DNA of 64,000 nucleotides from Vibrio ponticus (GTDB lineage Bacteria; Pseudomonadota; Gammaproteobacteria; Enterobacterales; Vibrionaceae), in the NCBI RefSeq assembly GCF_009938225.1, contig NZ_AP019657.1, forward strand, positions 1,860,001 through 1,924,000, written 5' to 3'. The notes under the pieces are model-generated. The model saw nothing but the letters and a program-made list of their open reading frames with translations, was not told the DNA's origin and ran no database searches. Both the position numbers and the translations under genes were made by a program. Every line of letters begins with the position of its first letter. Position 1 is the stretch's first letter. Below, one piece after another: positions 54,022 to 64,000 of this stretch.

Positions 54022-54786
54022 TCAGACCGCCACGCACATTGGTGTTTGAGCGACTGGATCAACAAAAACTTTCGCACGCAGATCAAACACCTTATCAAGC
54101 ATCTCTTCAGTAAGCACTTGCTTAGGCGTTCCTTGAGTGATCAAACTACCGGCTTTTAGTACGATTAGATGATCACAATATCGGCATGCTTGGTTCAAAT
54201 CATGCAAAACCACAACAATTGTTTTTCCTCTGCTATTCATCGCACGCATCAAGTTCATCAACTCTACTTGGTGAGACATATCCAAATACGTTGTTGGCTC
54301 ATCAAGTAGAATAATATCAGCATCTTGTGCCATAACCATGGCAATCCAAGCTCGTTGACGTTGACCTCCTGAAAGTGATTCAAGCGGAAAATCAGCGAAC
54401 TCAATGACACCTGTATCCCGCATCGCTTGAGTAACAATTTTATTGTCTTCCACACACAGCTTTCCCCAATGAGAGACATAAGGTGAACGCCCATACTCCA
54501 CCAACTTACGGACTGTAATCCCCTCAGGGTTCACCAAAATTTGTGGCAAGAGTGATAACCGTTGAGCAAGCTGTTTATCATGATAATCTCGTAGCGATTT
54601 GTTACCCAATAGAACGGAACCTGACAAAGGCTTATTAATTCGTACTAACGTTTTGAGCAGGGTCGACTTTCCACAGCCATTTGGTCCAACCAACGCAGTC
54701 ACTTTGCCTAACGGGATCGTCAGGGAAAGATTATGTATGATAGTTTTCTTACCATACCCCACCGATAAGTTCTCTGTTCTTAACAT
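54022..54786 (-). CDS. fecE: Ferric citrate/siderophore ABC ATPase (FecE-like)
   Basis: 254 residues starting at ATG 54786, with the fecD stop just upstream (TAACTATG); a TTG at 54795 is less likely. Walker A 'GPNGCGKST', signature 'LSGGQRQRAWIAM', Walker B 'IILLDEPTTYLDMSHQ' and H-loop 'VVVLHDLNQACRY' are complete. It resembles FecE and FepC. Last gene of the import operon. Confidence 0.88.
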   Translation of the reverse strand: MLRTENLSVGYGKKTIIHNLSLTIPLGKVTALVGPNGCGKSTLLKTLVRINKPLSGSVLLGNKSLRDYHDKQLAQRLSLLPQILVNPEGITVRKLVEYGRSPYVSHWGKLCVEDNKIVTQAMRDTGVIEFADFPLESLSGGQRQRAWIAMVMAQDADIILLDEPTTYLDMSHQVELMNLMRAMNSRGKTIVVVLHDLNQACRYCDHLIVLKAGSLITQGTPKQVLTEEMLDKVFDLRAKVFVDPVAQTPMCVAV

Positions 54787-54788
54787 AG

Positions 54789-55760
54789 TTACCAACCCCG
54801 ATATCGATAAAGTAAAAAAATAAAGTAAGGCGCACCGATTAATGATGTAAGCACACCAGCTGGCAACTCAATTGGGGGTTGAATTCCACGAGCGACCCCA
54901 TCAGCAGTAATCACCAAAAGAGCGCCTATCAATGCAGAAGCTGGAACTAGATATCGATGTGCATGAGCAAACATCAATCTTGCCAAATGAGGAGCAAGCA
55001 AACCAACAAAACTGATTGTCCCCACCACGGACACACTAATACTGGCAAGCAATACCGCTATCGCCAATGACCAAACCTGCACCTTCCTCGGCTGAATGCC
55101 TAAAGCCGTAGAGCTCTCCTCGCCAATCCCCATAACATCCAATCGCCAAGCCAACCAAAATGCCAAAGGAAGCAAGACAACCAAAGCCCCCCAAATAAAC
55201 GGAACCTGTTGCCAATTTCTACCCCAAAGGCTACCTGTTAGCCAAACCATCGCGGTATTAATTTCAATTGGATGGACGATCAAAAGATAATCGATGCCAC
55301 TTGCAAGGAAACTACTGACAGCAACACCAATTAGGGCAAGTCTTGCTGGCGTTGGACGGCACCAATAAGCAAGCAAAGCAATTAAACCAGCTGCCAACAA
55401 ACCACCAGCCATCGCTATTGGGGGTAAAAAATAGATCGGTACGTTTGGTGCAACCACGAGCATTAGCGTTGCGGCTAACCCCGCTCCAGCACTGATACCC
55501 ATCAAGTCTGGCGATGCCAGAGGATTACGGATCACACCTTGAACCAACGTGCCCGCTAAACCAAGACCAGCACCAACACCAATCGCGAGAACCATTCTTG
55601 GTAAACGATAAAGATGCACCACAAAGTCGAGTTGCTCAAAATCAAACAAGATCATCAGAACTTGTTCAAAAGAGAGAGTCGCAGCCCCAACAAATAAGGT
55701 TGAAAAAGAGAAACAGGCTAAAACACCTAGTATGATACCTAGTTTAAATGGCTCGCTCAT
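54789..55760 (-). CDS. fecD: Ferric citrate/siderophore ABC permease (FecD-like)
   Basis: 323 residues from ATG 55760, whose first base overlaps the fecC stop (TGATG). About eight to nine membrane segments with 'RLPRMVLAIGVGAGLGLAGTLVQGVIRNPLASPDLMGISAGAGLAA' and 'GTISFVGLLAPHLARLMFAHAHRYLVPASALIGA', typical of FecCD permeases. Pairs with FecC as a heterodimer. Confidence 0.88.
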   Translation of the reverse strand: MSEPFKLGIILGVLACFSFSTLFVGAATLSFEQVLMILFDFEQLDFVVHLYRLPRMVLAIGVGAGLGLAGTLVQGVIRNPLASPDLMGISAGAGLAATLMLVVAPNVPIYFLPPIAMAGGLLAAGLIALLAYWCRPTPARLALIGVAVSSFLASGIDYLLIVHPIEINTAMVWLTGSLWGRNWQQVPFIWGALVVLLPLAFWLAWRLDVMGIGEESSTALGIQPRKVQVWSLAIAVLLASISVSVVGTISFVGLLAPHLARLMFAHAHRYLVPASALIGALLVITADGVARGIQPPIELPAGVLTSLIGAPYFIFLLYRYRGW

Positions 55761-56794
55761 CACGATTTCCTCATTGCCACAATGATAAAACAAGGTGCAC
55801 CTATTAAAGCCGTGATTACCCCGACCGGCGTTTCAGCAGGAAAAGCAATCGACCTGGAGATTGCATCTGCCCATGAAACCAATGCTGCGCCAGCTAATGC
55901 CGAAAGAGGCAACAATACGAAGTAGTTGTTACCGACCAAAGGACGTATTAAGTGAGGAACAAGCAGACCAACAAAACCTATCGGCCCGGCAATAGCAACA
56001 CTGCTACCAGCGAGCAAAACTACGGCAAGGCTACTCAAAATACGAGTACGTTGAATATTTACACCTAAGCCCACAGCAACTTCCTCACCTAGTGATAGAA
56101 GATTCAAGTTACGAGCTTGGATCAGGGCGAGAACGAAACCAGATAACGCGGGGAGCCATAACTGTTTCCACTGTTGTTGATCAATGCTAGATAATGAACC
56201 GGTTAACCAATGCAATACGCTATAGGCCATATCGTCGGCTAAAATGACCGCGGCCCTCGTCAAACCAATCAATAATGCGCTCATCGCGATACCAGCTAAA
56301 ATTAACCTAAGAGGATGAGAACGCTGTGAAAAAAATCCCCCTAGTAACATCACGAAAAAGCCACTCAACAATGCCCCTAACACCGCATTCAATATGCTAT
56401 TAAGCTGAGCGAAAAATGGTACACCAATGGCTGCTAAAGCCATAAAACATGCTGCACCGGCATTAAGACCAAGTATTGATGGCGAGGCTAAATGATTACG
56501 AGTTAGACCTTGCATTAATACGCCAGACATCGCCAAGCTCGCGCCAATAACTAGGCTGGCATGTACTCTGGGCGCACGAAGCGTAGCTATGATTTGATGC
56601 CGCATATCATCGTCATCAAAGGAAAAGAGAAAACCACCTAGATCAACGAGTGTTAGCGAGAAACTCGACCAAGCAATCATAGAAAATACGTAACCCACCA
56701 ACACAACAATAAAGATAAGAGTCGCAAGTGTCGCGACTCTTATCTCTCGCTTGATCGTATTGGTCTGTCGTAATTCGTGTGACAAACCACTCAT
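55760..56794 (-). CDS. fecC: Ferric citrate/siderophore ABC permease (FecC-like)
   Basis: 344 residues; about nine membrane segments after a basic N-terminus ('SHELRQTNTIKREIRVATLATLIFIVVLVGYVF'). 'LRAPRVHASLVIGASLAMSGVLMQGLTRNHLASPSILGLNAGAACF' and 'GPIGFVGLLVPHLIRPLVGNNYFVLLPLSALAGAALVSWADAISR' place it in the FecCD family. It begins 5 bp after the fecB stop. Confidence 0.88.
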   Translation of the reverse strand: MSGLSHELRQTNTIKREIRVATLATLIFIVVLVGYVFSMIAWSSFSLTLVDLGGFLFSFDDDDMRHQIIATLRAPRVHASLVIGASLAMSGVLMQGLTRNHLASPSILGLNAGAACFMALAAIGVPFFAQLNSILNAVLGALLSGFFVMLLGGFFSQRSHPLRLILAGIAMSALLIGLTRAAVILADDMAYSVLHWLTGSLSSIDQQQWKQLWLPALSGFVLALIQARNLNLLSLGEEVAVGLGVNIQRTRILSSLAVVLLAGSSVAIAGPIGFVGLLVPHLIRPLVGNNYFVLLPLSALAGAALVSWADAISRSIAFPAETPVGVITALIGAPCFIIVAMRKS

Positions 56795-56799
56795 CGCTA

Positions 56800-57702
56800 T
56801 TATTGCAGTATTTGCTCAAGATTAACGGCGATTTCTTCAGCGGCGACCATGCCTCGGTTCAATGACCACAGGGCTGGCGAAACACTAATCATCTGCTCAT
56901 TCTTTGTTACCTTAAGCGCTTTATAGAGAGTATTTTTCTGCCATTCGTCCAAGATATCTGGATCTGAGTAAGAACCCACTAACAACCAGTCAGGGTTCAC
57001 TTTTAGGAGTAACTCAAAACTCGTTGGCAGATAAGCTTTCTCAGTTTGCTCGGGAATTGGGCTATGCAATCCCAGTTGCTCTAATACACCACCAGCATAT
57101 GAAGAAGGACCATGCATCCACATACCTTTGGCATTCACCACAGCAAACTGAATTGTGTCTTTACTATCAAATCGTTGCTTAAACTCAGCCATTTTTTGAT
57201 GATGTTGTTGAATACGAGCTTCCATCTCCGCTTGCTTGCCAACAGCAATACCGACTTTTAGAGCTGCTTCTAGGTTCTCGGTGTAAGTTTCACCGCGACT
57301 TTTGAGTAGCAACGTTGGCGCAATCTTTCTCAAATCTTGATAAATCGCAGTATGACGCTCAGCATCAGCAATAATCAAATCAGGTTGCAGTACTGCTATC
57401 GCTTCTAAGCTAGGCTGAGGGCGCATACCTACCGATGTCCAAGGCGAAATTTTAGCGCGAACTGCAGGTATAACTCGATTGATATCATTGTCATCCGCCA
57501 CACCTACCGGAGAAACTCCGACTGCAGCGAGCGCATCTACAAATGAGAATTCCAGTGCGACAATTTTGTTCGGCTGCGTTGAAATTTCAAAACTACCCTG
57601 TTCGTCTTGTATTACTCTAGTTTGAGCAAATGATAATGTTGATACTAACAAGCCGAACACACTGAATATCGTAGTCCACTTACCACAATTGATATACTTC
57701 AT
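56800..57702 (-). CDS. fecB: Ferric citrate-type periplasmic binding protein (FecB-like)
   Basis: 300 residues with a signal peptide (cleavage near residue 26). The mature part matches E. coli FecB closely by memory: '[72 protein letters not shown]' corresponds to FecB's '[34 protein letters not shown]...'. So the ligand may be ferric dicitrate or another citrate-type or catecholate siderophore. First gene of fecBCDE; no fecA receptor or fecIR signalling genes accompany it. A Fur-box-like site lies about 120 bp upstream. Confidence 0.87.
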
Positions 57703-58072: not shown

Positions 58073-59836
58073 ATGAGTCTCAATAAACAGCATTTTGATA
58101 TCGTCACTGCCCTTACGATGCAATGCACGTCCCTCAATGCCCTCGCTTCAGTATTCAATATGACTTCGCGCAACCTGCGCTATGCGATTGAGAACATCAA
58201 TTTCTATCTCGAAAAATTGGGAATGACGCCCATCGCCCTAACCAACGGCGAGCTCCACTATCCTTATGATGCCAGTCCATTCTTTAGCGATGTGTTCGCG
58301 ACTAATTTTGTCTACTCCAAACTGGAGCGAGAAGAATACTTAGCCGTCATTGCGCTCTTTGCGCCGCAAACGCCTTTATGTGAGGTTCAGCAGTATCTTA
58401 AAGTCAGTCGACCAACACTTAACAAAGATCTACGCGCCACCAATGAGATGTTCAGTAGCTTGGCATTGGAGCTCGAAGTGATCGATCAGCACCTGCACGT
58501 TTCAGGCAAAGAAAAGCAGATACGTTACTTGCAAATGTGTTACGCCTCTAAGTACCTTTTTTGTAAAAACGACCAAGTACATTATCTCAAGAAGCGCTAT
58601 TTCTATGAGCGGGATATTGTGGCGATTGTGCAGGCATATGTTGAAAAGTATCAGCCATATGAGGCATTTTTGGCGGTTACTCAAATTGAACAAAGTGCCA
58701 ACTGCGCTTTGAGTGATGAGTTCAGAAATCTCTTTACCATCTATGTGATGATCACCTTAAGCCGTATTCAGCAAGGGGTGTTTATTAACCGCAAAAATAA
58801 CGGTACGTTTTTGCAATCAACCAAAGCATTTGGCTATATCAAGCAAGCGCTCGGTTGGCAACAGGAAGGGTATCGTTTTGAAGCGCTGCATTTAGCCGAG
58901 TACTTCCTTGGCGGGATCAATACCGATGGCTTCTATGAAAAACGCCTACAAGCGGAAAGCTTTATATTCCAACTGCTGAGTGTGATTAGCCAAGATTGCG
59001 GCAAAGATTTGTTAACTGATACCGCGTTGCTGAATGACATCGTCACCTACCTGACGACCGCCGTTTATCGCGCGAAGAATAATCTCAACACGCAACTTGG
59101 TGAACAAAGCCCATATTCCAAAGCATTGTTTGAACAAGTTAAAGCCGTTACCGAACAGTATCGACATCATCTTGTTGAGCCACTGCGCAACGAAGAAATT
59201 GGTTACATTACCCGTTTAATCAATCGGGCGATTGAAGCGCGCAGCAGCCATTGTGTCTCTTTGGAAACCTTATTGGCGATTGCGAAAAGCAGCAGTGTTG
59301 AGCTCAACAACGAAGCGTTTGTGAGTCAGGTGCTGGCGCAACTCGGTGACAAGGTGATCGATGATCGCGCTTTACCCTCACTGGATGATCTACTCGTTAC
59401 CCTAAGCGATACGTCAACATTGCCCGCTCAAGGTGAGCTAGTGCCTATACTCAACTGGTTAAGTGGTGAAATGGAACAACTCGGCTTAGTTAACGAACGC
59501 TATTCCCACGGTATCGTCACGCTATTTTACGCCCGTAACCATGCCTACTTTGCTCAACATGGTTTGCTCGTTTGTCACGGTAAAAGCGCATCACACTGTC
59601 AACGAATAAGCATCGCTCACTTACGCTTGGATAAGCCAATCAGTGATGTTTTCCAGCGTAATATCCGCCAAATCATGATGATCAGCCATCTGGATAACGT
59701 ACAGCACTTACGTGCTGTACATCAATTACACCAAAAGCTTACCGAGCAGGGACCGTTCCTTCTTGCCGCAGATACGGAAACCCCACTTAGCAATAGGAGT
59801 ACAAGCGCGCTGTCTGCGTTTCATCCAACTGAGTAA
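58073..59836 (+). CDS. PRD/BglG-type PTS-linked transcriptional regulator (FrvR/LicR-like)
   Basis: 587 residues. The N-terminus has two helix-turn-helix-like parts: 'SLNALASVFNMTSRNLRYAIENINFYLEKLGM' and 'PLCEVQQYLKVSRPTLNKDLRATNEMFSSL' (about 16-50 and 100-130). Helical regions in the middle (about 190-420) fit PRD domains, whose His residues are phosphorylated by PTS enzymes. The C-terminus (about 455-560; 'YARNHAYFAQHGLLVCHGKSASHCQRISIAHLRLDKPIS') resembles an EIIA domain, partly degenerate. Such proteins bind DNA and activate PTS operons. Its 3' end overlaps the convergent M42 gene by 50 bp. Confidence 0.8.
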   Translation: MSLNKQHFDIVTALTMQCTSLNALASVFNMTSRNLRYAIENINFYLEKLGMTPIALTNGELHYPYDASPFFSDVFATNFVYSKLEREEYLAVIALFAPQTPLCEVQQYLKVSRPTLNKDLRATNEMFSSLALELEVIDQHLHVSGKEKQIRYLQMCYASKYLFCKNDQVHYLKKRYFYERDIVAIVQAYVEKYQPYEAFLAVTQIEQSANCALSDEFRNLFTIYVMITLSRIQQGVFINRKNNGTFLQSTKAFGYIKQALGWQQEGYRFEALHLAEYFLGGINTDGFYEKRLQAESFIFQLLSVISQDCGKDLLTDTALLNDIVTYLTTAVYRAKNNLNTQLGEQSPYSKALFEQVKAVTEQYRHHLVEPLRNEEIGYITRLINRAIEARSSHCVSLETLLAIAKSSSVELNNEAFVSQVLAQLGDKVIDDRALPSLDDLLVTLSDTSTLPAQGELVPILNWLSGEMEQLGLVNERYSHGIVTLFYARNHAYFAQHGLLVCHGKSASHCQRISIAHLRLDKPISDVFQRNIRQIMMISHLDNVQHLRAVHQLHQKLTEQGPFLLAADTETPLSNRSTSALSAFHPTE

Positions 59837-60836
59837 CCACATGCTTGAGCAAAGCGAGACAATTGAGCGCATCGCTTTGCTTCACTTGGGTGTAAGCTGA
59901 GTGGCAGTTACGTACAGGTAATATAATCGCTAAGCCAGCAATGCCACTGCCTACCAATGTTGCCGGACCGTTGTCGGTACCGCCACCAGCAAGAAAATCG
60001 CGTTGAACGGCAATACCGTATTCTTTCGCCACATCACTGACCAAGTTCAGCAAAGGGTAATGCCCTAAAGCAATCTTGTCAGCCACCACTAAACATGGTC
60101 CGTGACCAAACAGACGTTGAGAACCAGACTGTGGCGTTAGATGTTTAGCCGTCGCTACATCCAGCACAATGACCACATCCGGCTTCAGTTGCTCAATCGC
60201 AGTTTTTCCGCCTTTGGTGCCCACTTCTTCTTGCACTGTGGCAACAAAATAGAGGTCACACTGTGGTGCGCTCTGTTTGAGTGAGCGCATCAACTCAGCC
60301 CCAAGCCAGCAGCCAATGCGATCATCCATCGCTTTGCCAACTAAGGTTTCGCTGTTATTTAACTGGAAGTGACGAGTAGCAAAGACCGCACTATCACCAA
60401 TTTCGATACCCATTGCCGCCACTTGCTCGCTGCTTGTTGCACCGACATCAAGCCATAGGTCATCAATGGTGAGTTCTGCCAGCGGCTTATCGCTCCAGAC
60501 TAAGCCCGTGTATTTCTCACCACTGCGGGTTTTGAGCTCGATTTCACTGTTGATCGCAACACGTGGATCAATACCGCCGAGCTTAAACACTTTCAGTAAA
60601 CCGTCACTACGAATTTCGCGGATCAAAAAGCCCACTTCATCCATATGTGCAACCACCGCCACTTTAGGACCGGTAGCGTTGCGATTGAGTCGTGCAATCA
60701 GGCTGCCTAAACCATCAAAGCTGATTTCATCAGCGATATCGGCAAGCTCATCACACAAAATTTTTCTTACTTCATACTCACGCCCAGATGGACCATGAGC
60801 ATTATTCAATTGCGCCAACAAACGGAAGTCATTCAT
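59787..60836 (-). CDS. M42-family aminopeptidase (FrvX/glutamyl aminopeptidase-like)
   Basis: 349-residue cytoplasmic dodecameric-type metalloaminopeptidase. The dinuclear metal site is visible: His64 and Asp66 in 'VVAHMDEVGF', the bridging Asp in 'KAMDDRIGC', the general base Glu pair in 'TVQEEVGTKGG', Asp in 'VIVLDVA' and the His near the C-terminus in 'HSAYTQ'. 'GPSGREYEVRKIL' is also typical. Its ATG overlaps the M24 stop (TAATG). In E. coli the M42 protein FrvX is linked to a PTS; here the same arrangement occurs. Family members cut N-terminal residues from short peptides. Confidence 0.88.
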   Translation of the reverse strand: MNDFRLLAQLNNAHGPSGREYEVRKILCDELADIADEISFDGLGSLIARLNRNATGPKVAVVAHMDEVGFLIREIRSDGLLKVFKLGGIDPRVAINSEIELKTRSGEKYTGLVWSDKPLAELTIDDLWLDVGATSSEQVAAMGIEIGDSAVFATRHFQLNNSETLVGKAMDDRIGCWLGAELMRSLKQSAPQCDLYFVATVQEEVGTKGGKTAIEQLKPDVVIVLDVATAKHLTPQSGSQRLFGHGPCLVVADKIALGHYPLLNLVSDVAKEYGIAVQRDFLAGGGTDNGPATLVGSGIAGLAIILPVRNCHSAYTQVKQSDALNCLALLKHVVTQLDETQTARLYSYC

Positions 60837-61975
60837 TAATTTGATACTCCTGGCTCTCTGCTTTGGTGACCAGATTCTTGGGTTACTGGCTCTGTTGCAA
60901 CAGGCTGTAAGGGAATCATGCGTAACTCTCTTGGCAATTGAGTCAGACTTTCACAGCCGTTTTCAGTGATCGCTAAGGTATCTTCAATCCTGACACCGCC
61001 AATCTGAGGCAAATAGACGCCCGGTTCAACGGTAACCACCATACCGACTTCTAATGTGGCGCTGCTATCGGAGGCAAGTTTCGGGTATTCATGACCTTGC
61101 AACCCAACGCCATGACCTAAGCCGTGACAAAATGCCTCTCGATACCCTTGGCGAGCAAGGTACTGTCTAACACCATCATCCACTCGACTGGCAGCGATAC
61201 CAGGTCGAAGCATTTCAACCCCCATTCGCTGCGCAGTAAACACCGCATCAAAAATTGCCTGCAGCTGCTCAGAAACCGGTCCGGTACAAAACGTTCGGGT
61301 CACATCAGAGTGATAACCTTGATACACCACGCCAAAATCAATCGTGACCAGTTCATTTTGCTCAATCACTCGCTGGGATGGTCGACCATGAGGTAACGCC
61401 CCTCGCTCACCAGAAACCACGATCAGAAAATCAATGCTGTCAGCTCCTAACATTCGCGCATGGAACTCTAGGTGTGCCGCGAGTTGATGTTCAGTCATAC
61501 CAAGATGAAAATCACGTAAACCTCGCTCAATCGCTGTTTCGGTGATTTCGCATGCCTTGCGGATCAGAGCAATTTCTTGCTCTGACTTCCAACGTCTCAT
61601 AGGAGTAACGACATTGTTGGTCGGCACCAGTTGTTGCGAGAGCGCCTGTTTTAACTGTTCTACTTGTTGAAAACTTAGCGCATGGCTCTCAAAACCTAAT
61701 CTCTGGATACCGTGAACATTCAGCCTTTGTTGCAGTGTCTCTAACCAACCGTGTTGGTCTGTCGACACGCTCAAACAATCCGGGCTTTGCTCTGCCACTT
61801 GCTGCCAATACTTACCTGCGACCAAAAGTTCGCACCCTAACTGCGTTAGCAATAAGTACCCGCCACTGCCAGTAAAACCGCTCAGATAACGCTTGTGGTG
61901 AGGGTCACTCACAAGCAAAGCATCAAACTGTTCTAAGTAAGGCTCTAAGCTGAATGTCCGCATTTTAATATCCAT
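60836..61975 (-). CDS. M24-family Xaa-Pro dipeptidase/aminopeptidase-like protein
   Basis: 379 residues with a creatinase N-domain (about 1-130) and a pita-bread catalytic domain. The five metal ligands are all visible: Asp in 'VTIDFGVVYQ', Asp in 'YHSDVTRTF', His in 'CHGLGHGVGLQGHE', Glu in 'VTVEPGVYLP' and Glu in 'VRIEDTLAI'. Family members hydrolyse Xaa-Pro bonds. It follows the EIIC gene by about 40 bp. A second ATG at 61963 is possible. The C-terminal tail ('VATEPVTQESGHQSREPGVSN') is unlike the family. Confidence 0.87.
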   Translation of the reverse strand: MDIKMRTFSLEPYLEQFDALLVSDPHHKRYLSGFTGSGGYLLLTQLGCELLVAGKYWQQVAEQSPDCLSVSTDQHGWLETLQQRLNVHGIQRLGFESHALSFQQVEQLKQALSQQLVPTNNVVTPMRRWKSEQEIALIRKACEITETAIERGLRDFHLGMTEHQLAAHLEFHARMLGADSIDFLIVVSGERGALPHGRPSQRVIEQNELVTIDFGVVYQGYHSDVTRTFCTGPVSEQLQAIFDAVFTAQRMGVEMLRPGIAASRVDDGVRQYLARQGYREAFCHGLGHGVGLQGHEYPKLASDSSATLEVGMVVTVEPGVYLPQIGGVRIEDTLAITENGCESLTQLPRELRMIPLQPVATEPVTQESGHQSREPGVSN

Positions 61976-62016
61976 TCATCCGTTATTTCGAGAAACCATG
62001 CATCGAGTGTGTTGGG

Positions 62017-63360
62017 TTAGAAATCGAGTCCCAGCTCATCCAACAATTCATCGTCTTTCTTGCTGAATACTGATTTCTTCTCTTGTTCTGCTTTTAGCGC
62101 CGCTTCACGAGCCATCTCTTGTCTGTCCATGATTCTAAAGAACGGGTAGTAACAGAAGAATGAGGCGACAATCTGTATTGCTTGAACAAATGGCGTCTTC
62201 CAGTCAAAGCTTGTTAAGTAACCTTCAAAGAACAATGGTAGATACGGTGGATCAAAGAACGGTTTCGCTAAGAAGCCATATTTCATCAATACCAGTGGGA
62301 AGATACCAATCAGCGAACCACCCAGTACGAACGGGATAAATAGAATCGGGTTCAAGATAATTGGCGCACCAAATAGCACTGGTTCGTTAATACCAAACAA
62401 ACTTGGCACTAAAGAAACCTGACCAACCTTGCGGTAGCGTTGAGTTTTCGCAATCAACATCGCGATAACCAGACCTAAAGTAACACCTGACCCTGTAAAG
62501 TTAACGAACGCTGAGAACGTACCACCAGTAACAAAGTGAGTCAGTTCAACGCCTGCCGTTTTCGCGGCAATGTTTTCAGAAAGATATTGCACGAAGATTG
62601 GCGATAGGATCGGGCTTAATACTGCTGAGTGGATACCAAAGAACCAGAACAACAGACGTAGCATGATCACAAACCACACCACCCATAGGTTATCCAAACT
62701 ACCTACCACTGGCGCAAGCACTTGCATTAGGATTTCAGGCAGTAGCAAACCACCCGTCCACTCCGCAATAAAGTAACGCGCAGAGACAAACAGCACTGCA
62801 ATAAATGCGGTCGGCGTGATCAGTTCAAATGAGCTAGATACGAAGTCTGGCACACCCTCTGGCATTCTGATCACCAGTCTCTTTTCGGTAAAGAAACGAT
62901 AGATTTCCACACTGGCAATCGCGACAAATATCGCTGTAAATAGACCTTTTGAGTCAAAGAAGCGAATATCTAACGAACCATCTGGGTTGACCGAAGTGGT
63001 CATGATCAAATAAGCAAAAAGGGATAAGGCAACCGCACCCACTGTATATATTTTGTAGCCTTCACTCAAAAAGTAAGCAATTGCTATCACAGTGTAAATG
63101 GCGATAAAACCAAGTGAAAATTTAATTAAAAGATCGATAAGATAAGTGTTATTAATAAACCATTCTTGCACTGCTGCCGAATCAGAAAATACGTTTTTCA
63201 GTGCTTTTAATGGGTAAGCCATTGAACCTAATAATAGGATTGGCGTTAATACCACCATGCCTTTTTTAACGGCACTAAGATGGACTTGTTTATCTATTTT
63301 CTCTGCAATCGGCAATAATATTTTGCTGAGCAGTTTTTCAAAAGAGGCGAATAGGCTCAT
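62017..63360 (-). CDS. PTS lactose/cellobiose-family EIIC permease
   Basis: 447 residues from ATG 63360, preceded by AAGG; five more codons upstream are in frame but have no SD. About ten membrane segments; 'WFFGIHSAVLSPILSPI' and 'SLFGINEPVLFGAPIILNPILFIPFVLGGSLIGI' contain the family GINEP substrate motif. C-terminal cytosolic tail 'AEQEKKSVFSKKDDELLDELGLDF'. EIIB is the preceding gene. The sugar is not known; the family takes cellobiose, chitobiose, lactose or other beta-linked disaccharides. Confidence 0.9.
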   Translation of the reverse strand: MSLFASFEKLLSKILLPIAEKIDKQVHLSAVKKGMVVLTPILLLGSMAYPLKALKNVFSDSAAVQEWFINNTYLIDLLIKFSLGFIAIYTVIAIAYFLSEGYKIYTVGAVALSLFAYLIMTTSVNPDGSLDIRFFDSKGLFTAIFVAIASVEIYRFFTEKRLVIRMPEGVPDFVSSSFELITPTAFIAVLFVSARYFIAEWTGGLLLPEILMQVLAPVVGSLDNLWVVWFVIMLRLLFWFFGIHSAVLSPILSPIFVQYLSENIAAKTAGVELTHFVTGGTFSAFVNFTGSGVTLGLVIAMLIAKTQRYRKVGQVSLVPSLFGINEPVLFGAPIILNPILFIPFVLGGSLIGIFPLVLMKYGFLAKPFFDPPYLPLFFEGYLTSFDWKTPFVQAIQIVASFFCYYPFFRIMDRQEMAREAALKAEQEKKSVFSKKDDELLDELGLDF

Positions 63361-63432
63361 ATACGTAACCTTCATTCATTATAATAAGTAACACCTGCGT
63401 GTATCCGCAGGTGGTAGGGAGAGAGGTAAAAC

Positions 63433-63774
63433 TTAGTCAACCAGGCTCATTTGGTGCTTTTTATGGGCAAGTAGTGCTTGCTTAAGCACCGTCGCTCCAT
63501 CCATTGCACCGTAAATTTCGGCTGATAGTAGAACTGATGGTTTGTTATTTTCTAAAGCTGCCGCTTCAATGTTTTTATATTTGTGGCTTAGCTGAGGACC
63601 TACCAAGATCACATCAAAGTTATTAATTTTTTCTGACAGGCGATCAACTGAAATAGCTTCAAGTGTAAAATCTTCAATATTCAGCATTTGACTACCATTG
63701 ATGGTTTTCTTCATTTCTTCCATCATCATCGTGGTTGAAAAACCGCCAGCACAAACTAATAAAATATTCATCAT
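63433..63774 (-). CDS. PTS lactose/cellobiose-family EIIB
   Basis: Small cytosolic phosphotransfer protein, 113 residues from ATG 63774 (the ATG at 63771 has better SD spacing and would give 112). The phosphocysteine is Cys8 in 'MMNILLVCAGGFSTTMMMEEM', followed by the family 'FDVILVGPQLSHKYKNIE' loop. The open frame reaches 63837 but the extra codons are not family-like. It is first in the minus-strand operon EIIB-EIIC-M24-M42. Confidence 0.9.
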   Translation of the reverse strand: MMNILLVCAGGFSTTMMMEEMKKTINGSQMLNIEDFTLEAISVDRLSEKINNFDVILVGPQLSHKYKNIEAAALENNKPSVLLSAEIYGAMDGATVLKQALLAHKKHQMSLVD

Positions 63775-63838
63775 ACAGCCCTTTGTTTTCATATTTGAGT
63801 ACGGGCTAATTAACAAACATTTACTTACATTCGTCAAC

Positions 63839-63875
63839 GAAACTTGATTTCACTGATATTGTGAAATCAAGTTTC
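63839..63875. promoter_or_regulatory. Perfect 15+15 bp inverted repeat in the divergent PTS promoter region
   Basis: gaaacttgatttcac, a seven-base centre, then gtgaaatcaagtttc. It lies between the divergent EIIB (minus) and EIIA (plus) genes, 65 bp from the EIIB start and 63 bp from the EIIA start. No poly-T tract is present, so an operator for the PRD regulator is more likely than a terminator. Confidence 0.7.
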
Positions 63876-63937
63876 ATCGCTTTTTAATTCGCTTCTGCTA
63901 ATGTGCAACCATCAAGTGAAATCCAAGGAACATCCCC

Positions 63938-64000
63938 ATGAGCAACTCTCAAGAAATGAATGAAGAATTCGAAAAAATCATAATCTCTATCGTTAGTTAT
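63938..64000 (+). CDS. PTS lactose/cellobiose-family EIIA, N-terminus only
   Basis: ATG at 63938 with SD AAGGA eight bases upstream. The 21 visible residues, MSNSQEMNEEFEKIIISIVS followed by Tyr, resemble the N-terminal helix of LacF/ChbA-type EIIA proteins ('E.EE.E..IM.LI..SG'). The rest, including the phospho-His, is beyond the right edge. Together with the divergent EIIB and EIIC it would make a complete enzyme II. Confidence 0.7.
   Translation, partial: MSNSQEMNEEFEKIIISIVSY

Follow-up and report, generated by a model that had tools for sequence, protein, structure and literature searches.

The right-hand end of the DNA analysed here (the window: 64,000 bases, at 1860001-1924000 on a contig of 3.2 Mb from a Vibrio genome of 4.80 Mb, G000) carries genes of a sugar phosphotransferase system (PTS) next to two metallopeptidase genes. 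The sequence beyond the window was also read, and the locus continues there. It is a module of seven genes, consisting of a PRD/Mga regulator, an M42 and an M24 peptidase, the enzyme II components EIIC, EIIB and EIIA, and a MalY/PatB-type C-S lyase that lies just past the window. The first-pass annotation of this DNA had described a PTS, the two peptidases, a PRD regulator and a divergent EIIA as one locus, and Pfam and TIGR matches confirm this description, with all of these genes intact in frame. In window coordinates the features are the following.

58073-59836, plus strand: PRD/Mga-type transcription regulator of 587 amino acids (PF00874, 38.6 bits, cut-off 23; PF05043, 30.3 bits, cut-off 21.1)
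59787-60836, minus strand: M42 aminopeptidase, YpdE-like (PF05343, 251 bits; nearest solved chain 1ylo)
60836-61975, minus strand: M24 peptidase, PepQ/YpdF-like (PF00557, 216 bits; PF01321, 68 bits)
62017-63375, minus strand: PTS EIIC of the lactose/cellobiose family (TIGR00410, 281.8 bits, cut-off 236)
63433-63774, minus strand: PTS EIIB of the lactose/cellobiose family (PF02302, 43.9 bits, above cut-off; the frame 63433-63837 was scanned)
63809-63837, minus strand: promoter-like TTGACG-17-GTTAAT
63839-63875, no strand: perfect 15-7-15 inverted repeat between EIIB and EIIA, a candidate operator
63938 to beyond 64000, plus strand: PTS EIIA of the Lac family (PF02255, 106.8 bits, above cut-off)
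64404-65588 by window count (1924404-1925588 of the contig; L002:8405-9589), plus strand, behind EIIA: MalY/PatB-type pyridoxal phosphate (PLP) C-S lyase (TIGR04350)

The permease belongs to the lactose/cellobiose PTS family, since EIIC exceeded the TIGR00410 cut-off and EIIB and EIIA matched PF02302 and PF02255. The GIH and INE motifs of EIIC align with 3qnq and were invariant in 24 sequences, including that of the window. None of the four sugar-named equivalogs that scored (cellobiose, lactose, chitobiose) was reached, the scores being 281.8 bits for TIGR00359 (cut-off 434), 167.9 for TIGR00394 (614), 159.8 for PRK09592 (503) and 135.1 for PRK10297 (760). In several orthologs the first possible start of EIIC is the ATG equivalent to 63360. 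EIIB, when read from the ATG at 63774, has 113 amino acids with its N-terminal cysteine within LVCAGGFST, and just the first 63 bases of EIIA (63938-64000) are inside the window.

The M24 and M42 genes overlap by one base in TAATG, as had been noted before and as we saw again in the sequence. The metal ligands reported earlier also held up: the positions that we take to be ligands were invariant across 10 aligned M24 sequences (D213, D224, H288, E317 and E331) and across 8 aligned M42 sequences (H64, D171, E203/E204, D226 and H312). The M24 protein is X-Pro-like and scored 245 bits with PRK09795 (cut-off 393), while M42 scored 298.6 bits with PRK09961 (cut-off 412) and 199.9 bits with PRK09864 (cut-off 569); we take these three to be the models of YpdF, YpdE and FrvX, respectively. 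A side observation concerns a run near the conserved PH motif, IDFLIVVSG(E/K)RG..PHGRP(S/T), which is common to the M24 proteins of Vibrio, Photobacterium and Cetobacterium and is one residue shorter than in YpdF and the M24 of Enterococcus. Judged from the alignment, the shortened run possibly corresponds to a changed substrate pocket. The regulator gene is convergent with the peptidase operon, and its 3' end overlaps that of M42 by 50 bp (59787-59836). The overlap was 50-53 bp in the other four Vibrio loci and was not seen in Photobacterium.

The lyase passed the TIGR04350 cut-off of 340 narrowly, with 341.1 bits, and scored 451 bits with chain 1d2f of Escherichia coli MalY. In the alignment with that chain, its K237 and Y122 fall on K233 and Y121, the MalY residues that serve as PLP lysine and active-site tyrosine (PMC5845896). 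A MalY protein from a similar cluster in Lactobacillus sakei had beta-lyase activity on L-Cys, L-cystine and L-cystathionine, according to the part of PMC5845896 cited here. With this enzyme past the window, the best guess on the cargo is no longer a muropeptide or a plain glycopeptide but a conjugate that can be cut by beta-elimination at an S- or O-link.

All seven genes were found in the same layout in each of the five Vibrio genomes that have EIIC (5 of 227 at E<=1e-90). M24 was given its own Vibrio search, whereas M42 was followed via the EIIC loci. M24 (E<=1e-50) occurred in 5 of 223 genomes, the same five as EIIC, and adjoined EIIC in each. Genomes in which the peptidases had parted from the PTS genes had been named beforehand as evidence against the first-pass annotation; for M24 in Vibrio, the two are kept together. 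In an order-wide sample, EIIC was present in 3 of 394 genomes, all of them Vibrio. In a family sample, an EIIC ortholog of at least 88% identity was present in 6 of 296 genomes, including two Photobacterium, and the others among the matches listed were at most 34% identical. G000 is a close relative of V. fluminensis, with an EIIC that is 99.8-100% identical. A flank with GABA (gamma-aminobutyrate) transaminase and TRAP (tripartite ATP-independent periplasmic) transporter genes is common to G000, V. fluminensis and a further genome, G062; the loci of V. sinensis and V. renipiscarius are flanked otherwise. An artefact, broken genes or chance clustering can thus be set aside, given the intact frames and the conservation in five of five genomes with partly different flanks. 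Within Vibrionaceae, identities ranged over 88-99% for EIIC, 55-97% for M24 and 48-98% for the regulator. We also observed that EIIC is much more conserved than the peptidases, the lyase and the regulator of the module.

In both Photobacterium genomes, EIIA, EIIB, EIIC, M24 and M42 lie together, and MalY is elsewhere, beside malX. The regulator adjoins the locus in all five Vibrio genomes and in one of the two Photobacterium; in the other it is on the same contig, about 7 kb beyond M42. Farther away, a protein search gave EIIC relatives in Cetobacterium (71-72% identity), Clostridium chrysemydis (71%), Sarcina (70%) and Brevinema (67-70%), and in Carnobacterium, Vagococcus and Enterococcus (mostly 56-58%). 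A scan of IMG/VR with the EIIC alignment gave no relative. The EIIC of the Enterococcus loci is 58% identical to that of Vibrio. Megaplasmids of E. raffinosus and E. gilvus carry PRD regulator, EIIA, EIIB, EIIC, M24, M42 and PatB in a single run on one strand, in which the M24, M42 and lyase genes overlap, and EIIC, M24 and the lyase follow each other in matching order on another two plasmids of E. raffinosus. The lyases of these runs scored 307 and 311 bits with TIGR04350, under the cut-off of 340, yet it is their best model by far. Their regulator is about 22% identical to that of the window over the aligned part.

Indirect evidence of linkage came from the sizes of the longest contigs in protein clusters (rows used: 60 of the 120 listed for EIIC, all 120 listed for PatB and 40 of the 120 listed for M24). 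Nine sizes were common to EIIC and PatB clusters, against a mean of 0.15 and a maximum of 2 in the shift null, and seven were common to EIIC and M24 clusters (null mean 0.06, maximum 2). Nine of these 16 coinciding sizes were 7-20 kb; the longer ones indicate the same replicon only, as with a Cetobacterium somerae contig of 637,450 bases that carries EIIC and M24.

The lyases of Vibrio and Enterococcus belong to separate lineages. In the lyase tree, which took in 8 of 24 further malX-linked loci, the Vibrio copies fell among gammaproteobacterial MalY and the Enterococcus copies among PatB of Bacilli. A single clade of Vibrio and Enterococcus lyases was rejected by the approximately unbiased (AU) test (p-AU 1.27e-7), with groups that were set by gene context but after the first lyase tree had been viewed. 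A branch (98/92) separated the M24 proteins of Vibrio, Photobacterium, Cetobacterium and Enterococcus from the other sampled M24s, although this tree is a weak test in that the other M24s were chosen from matches to the Vibrio profile. On these phylogenies, it looks as if the PTS-peptidase set was inherited or transferred as a whole and the C-S lyase was added at least twice. Nothing argues more strongly for a connection between lyase and cargo than this separate recruitment.

The pairing of a PTS with such a lyase is wider than this module. MalY (E<=1e-90) was found in 80 of 292 Vibrionaceae genomes. We read 37 MalY/PatB loci, most lower-ranked MalY matches having no locus to read, and all 35 loci of about 48% identity or more adjoin a PTS gene, which is this module in 5 and malX in 30; the two PatB genes of 31% identity have no adjoining PTS gene. 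Outside the family, malX adjoins a PatB-type gene on two large C. somerae plasmids, on one Klebsiella plasmid and in E. coli K-12. That any PatB or M24 gene adjoins a PTS was rejected by control regions. Of eight plasmid regions chosen by lyase match, the three just mentioned from Cetobacterium and Klebsiella lie by malX, and the five from Priestia, Yersinia, Serratia, Parabacteroides and Listeria have no adjoining PTS permease operon, with a lone EIIB 2 kb off in Listeria; the two Enterococcus regions were chosen by EIIC match and were left out of this tally. Two of the underlying plasmid searches had matched 22 and 43 records. The M24 gene of L. fermentum, the sole unlinked M24 region read, has no adjoining PTS gene. 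Three Vibrio genomes also have malX and malY beside an M20 peptidase gene, with a divergent PRD/Mga regulator that is a distant homolog of that of the window.

L081:7024-12869: malX-malY-M20 peptidase cluster of G062
L082:6804-12675: malX-malY-M20 peptidase cluster of V. renipiscarius
L083:6898-12801: malX-malY-M20 peptidase cluster of V. sinensis

This cluster is the glucose-family counterpart of the module in the window. MalX of G062 was above the cut-off of its model with 659 bits, and the M20 peptidases of G062 and V. sinensis scored 267 and 257 bits with a PepT-like model, just below its cut-off of 274. In V. fluminensis, a 598-codon open frame without a Pfam match lies between malX and malI (L086:10993-12789).

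The space between the two divergent operons is conserved as well. The inverted repeat occurs as one site per genome in all seven EIIC-bearing genomes with at most 3 mismatches, and a reversed-pattern control gave 0. The letters of its spacer vary and the length is constant, and one position is altered on both arms between Vibrio and Photobacterium. One base beyond the dyad, TTGACG-17-GTTAAT reads into EIIB. It is the sole such match in the window, and TTGACG-17-(G/A)TTAAT stands beside the dyad in seven of seven genomes (nine loci read, two genomes twice); a consensus promoter scan, in which the second hexamer must have A as its second base, did not flag it. As far as base patterns go, the arrangement would suit a site at which the PRD regulator activates or represses transcription. 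A single PRD stretch was detected in this protein together with the Mga/HTH domain, and it likely activates both operons. The dyad also scored as a weak terminator-like hairpin toward EIIA, with 5 G-C pairs of 15, and it may instead be a weak attenuator. That each genome has a single site suggests a regulon made up of no more than these two divergent operons, and argues against a wider scavenging regulon. No such dyad was found upstream of the two Enterococcus regulator genes. Nor did the malX-malY-peptidase clusters show a shared operator, since their intergenic regions lacked any inverted repeat with arms of at least 8.

What would these genes do together? The PTS mechanism needs a sugar hydroxyl on the cargo, metallo-aminopeptidases need peptide bonds and a free amino end, and a MalY/PatB lyase needs an amino acid whose beta-carbon bears a leaving group. 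A small peptide with a sugar on a cysteine sulfur or a serine oxygen meets all three requirements. Tentatively, we suggest that the seven genes form a module for the uptake and dismantling of a sugar-bearing conjugate of an amino acid or small peptide, in which the lyase cuts by beta-elimination. EIIA, EIIB and EIIC would bind the cargo via its sugar and phosphorylate it during import. The M24 enzyme (X-Pro/prolidase type) and the M42 enzyme (a broad aminopeptidase of the YpdE type) would then strip the flanking residues, and the MalY/PatB enzyme would cut the C-beta bond of the remaining sugar-bearing cysteine (S-linked, preferred) or serine (O-linked). The expected products are pyruvate, ammonia and a phosphorylated sugar, as thiol or alcohol, so that the lyase would take the place of a phospho-glycosidase, for which the module has no gene. 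The PRD/Mga regulator would sense the PTS traffic and act on the dyad between the operons. We infer the shared substrate, the order of the steps, the S- or O-link and the binding site of the regulator; what was observed directly are the genes, their intact ligand and catalytic positions, the linkage kept in unrelated lineages, the separate lyase lineages and the conserved dyad and promoter. Finding PTS, peptidases and lyase combined in both Vibrio and Enterococcus suggests that these bacteria take up a conjugate of sugar and amino acid and break it down. The sugar-peptide cargo of the first-pass annotation survives in part: the data are read most simply as a cargo with a sugar part and an amino-acid part, and nothing points to peptidoglycan in particular.

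Several observations weigh against this proposal. Both Photobacterium loci keep the PTS and the peptidases without an adjoining lyase. Conversely, M24 or M42 genes like those of the window were found within 1.5 kb at none of the 30 malX-linked MalY loci, where M20 was not sought, so a lyase of this kind does not always go with such a peptidase. Likewise, no peptidase gene is annotated next to malXY in E. coli, in Klebsiella or on the two Cetobacterium plasmids, and for these two C. somerae plasmids there was no close EIIC match among the matches listed. Both peptidases are below the cut-offs of the named functional families, and their activity could therefore differ. In the cited part of PMC5845896, no beta-lyase activity of L. 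sakei MalY on L-Ser was detected, the enzyme racemised Ala, Glu, Ser and more in vitro with a kcat/Km that the authors place in the same order as that of the beta-lyase reaction, and E. coli MalY is given a regulatory role. The beta-lyase data favour the S-link, and the racemase data leave room for a racemase.

The module might instead import an ordinary beta-disaccharide, with the peptidases and the lyase being co-regulated scavenging or regulatory genes that do not act on the cargo and a phospho-glycosidase encoded elsewhere. We consider this unlikely, although EIIC is a true Lac/Cel permease with the known sugar-site motifs, a second Lac/Cel-type EIIC is present elsewhere in G000, M24 and M42 are generic peptidases and MalY of E. 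coli acts in regulation, as already noted. The M24 and lyase genes are tied to EIIC in Vibrio, and M24, M42 and the lyase are tied to it in Enterococcus. Neither the seven-gene Vibrio module nor the Enterococcus runs, as annotated, include a phospho-glycosidase gene, and the separate recruitment of the lyase and the single dyad per genome count further against it.

A second alternative is a peptidoglycan or glycoprotein fragment, the example given in the first-pass annotation, joined through amide or peptide bonds, in which the PLP enzyme would be a racemase or transaminase acting on freed residues such as D-Ala and D-Glu. Two aminopeptidases could trim a peptide stem; to our knowledge, however, aminopeptidases of the X-Pro and YpdE types are not muropeptide enzymes. 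The seven genes include none for an amidase, an LD-peptidase, MurQ or a NagA-type enzyme, and the lyase meets the C-S lyase model, if narrowly. The racemase activity of L. sakei MalY speaks for this alternative, but its Km for Ala is 150-169 mM in the cited data (PMC5845896), and we regard the alternative as quite improbable.

A mucin-type O-glycopeptide, in which the PLP enzyme would eliminate a mono- or disaccharide from glycosyl-Ser (the glycan being Ser/Thr-linked on a Pro-rich peptide), has very little probability in our view: an X-Pro-like M24 suits mucin sequence, the module is without a glycosidase, and near EIIC/M24 relatives occur in C. somerae, Vagococcus salmoninarum, Enterococcus, V. 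scophthalmi and V. ichthyoenteri, which are presumably for the most part animal-associated, but sugar oxygens make poor leaving groups and there is no residue evidence for a glycan site. The inactivity of L. sakei MalY on L-Ser (PMC5845896, the part cited here) also counts against it, although free Ser is no fair test of glycosyl-Ser.

The uptake of a beta-eliminable sugar conjugate thus remains the reading that we prefer. A broader idea, on the unlikely side but worth stating, is that it represents a distinct kind of catabolism, in which a PTS imports peptides with a sugar on Cys (S-linked) or Ser and a MalY/PatB lyase, not a glycosidase, frees the phosphorylated sugar; this would explain the pairing of MalX with MalY. 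If true, the same logic would cover E. coli MalX-MalY and the malX-malY-peptidase clusters of Vibrio, MalY would be a catabolic enzyme for PTS cargo with its effect on the maltose regulon being secondary, and the long-standing puzzle of a PTS permease beside a C-S lyase in E. coli malXY would gain a testable answer. PTS cargo would then extend beyond its usual substrates to sugar-amino-acid conjugates cut by beta-elimination. Given the small size of the Lac-family module, its single apparent operator in each genome and its presence in unrelated bacteria, its substrate is searchable by induction and mutants.

The module has further genes on either side in G000. An iron-siderophore-type ATP-binding cassette transporter operon is located to the left of the locus (54022-57702, minus strand), in which the binding protein was checked and the ATPase and two permeases were named by their reading frames. 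On the other side, the lyase is followed by an outer-membrane beta-barrel gene, the GABA-transaminase gene and the TRAP transporter on the opposite strand; these three are taken to be outside the module.

With respect to known systems, the gene combination as such is already in print. An 8-kb stretch of L. sakei LT-13, absent from strain LK-145, carries two PRD genes, an aminopeptidase, EIIA, EIIB, EIIC, an RDD protein, a second aminopeptidase and MalY (PMC5845896, legend of Figure 1). Like the module in the window, it has PRD, two aminopeptidases, a Lac/Cel EIIA, EIIB and EIIC, and MalY together; the gene order, the second PRD gene and the RDD protein are different. The Discussion of that paper takes up the racemase and beta-lyase activities, the PTS link and the parallel to malXY, and proposes no function in conjugate import. 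Among the open-licence literature, it was the only paper found to describe such a cluster, and none was found that deals with how it is conserved, with separate lineages of its lyase or with what it does. A peptidase acting before PatB has a precedent in Staphylococcus hominis, where Cys-Gly-3M3SH is imported and processed by a dipeptidase and then by the PatB C-S lyase (PMC7385124, in the part cited here). By analogy, this route on a Cys-Gly S-conjugate counts for the mechanism that we propose, although import is by the peptide transporter DtpT and involves neither a sugar nor a PTS.

The malI-malX-malY locus of E. coli resembles the module in that a PTS permease gene adjoins MalY, and the lyase of the window falls within the MalY clade. 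It differs in having a glucose-type EIIBC (MalX), the MalI repressor and no annotated adjoining peptidases, whereas the window has a Lac-family trio by MalY. The frv locus of E. coli was the comparison drawn in the first-pass annotation, which knew of no M24 peptidase there. The frv locus has PTS genes of another family, the M42 protein FrvX and the regulator FrvR, and we know of no M24 or lyase there. However, the M42 protein of the window is closer to YpdE than to FrvX by the scores given above, and fry/ypd of E. coli (fryB-fryC-ypdF-ypdE-fryA) shares the gene order, which together rule out frv as the nearest relative. The EIIB-EIIC-M24-M42 order and orientation of fry/ypd are the same as those of the window, and ypdF and ypdE have the same one-base TAATG overlap. 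Hence, fry/ypd is the nearer precedent, and an M24-M42 pair behind EIIB and EIIC was already known. The resemblance has limits, since M42 and M24 are each 36% identical to YpdE and YpdF and do not reach their equivalog cut-offs. FryA is a multiphosphoryl protein, in contrast to the Lac-type EIIA of the window, and we take the fry/ypd permease to be of the fructose family. No C-S lyase or PRD regulator is annotated beside fry/ypd, whereas the module in the window has both. Relative to fry/ypd, the Vibrio module has a permease of another family and, in addition, a PRD regulator and a lyase.

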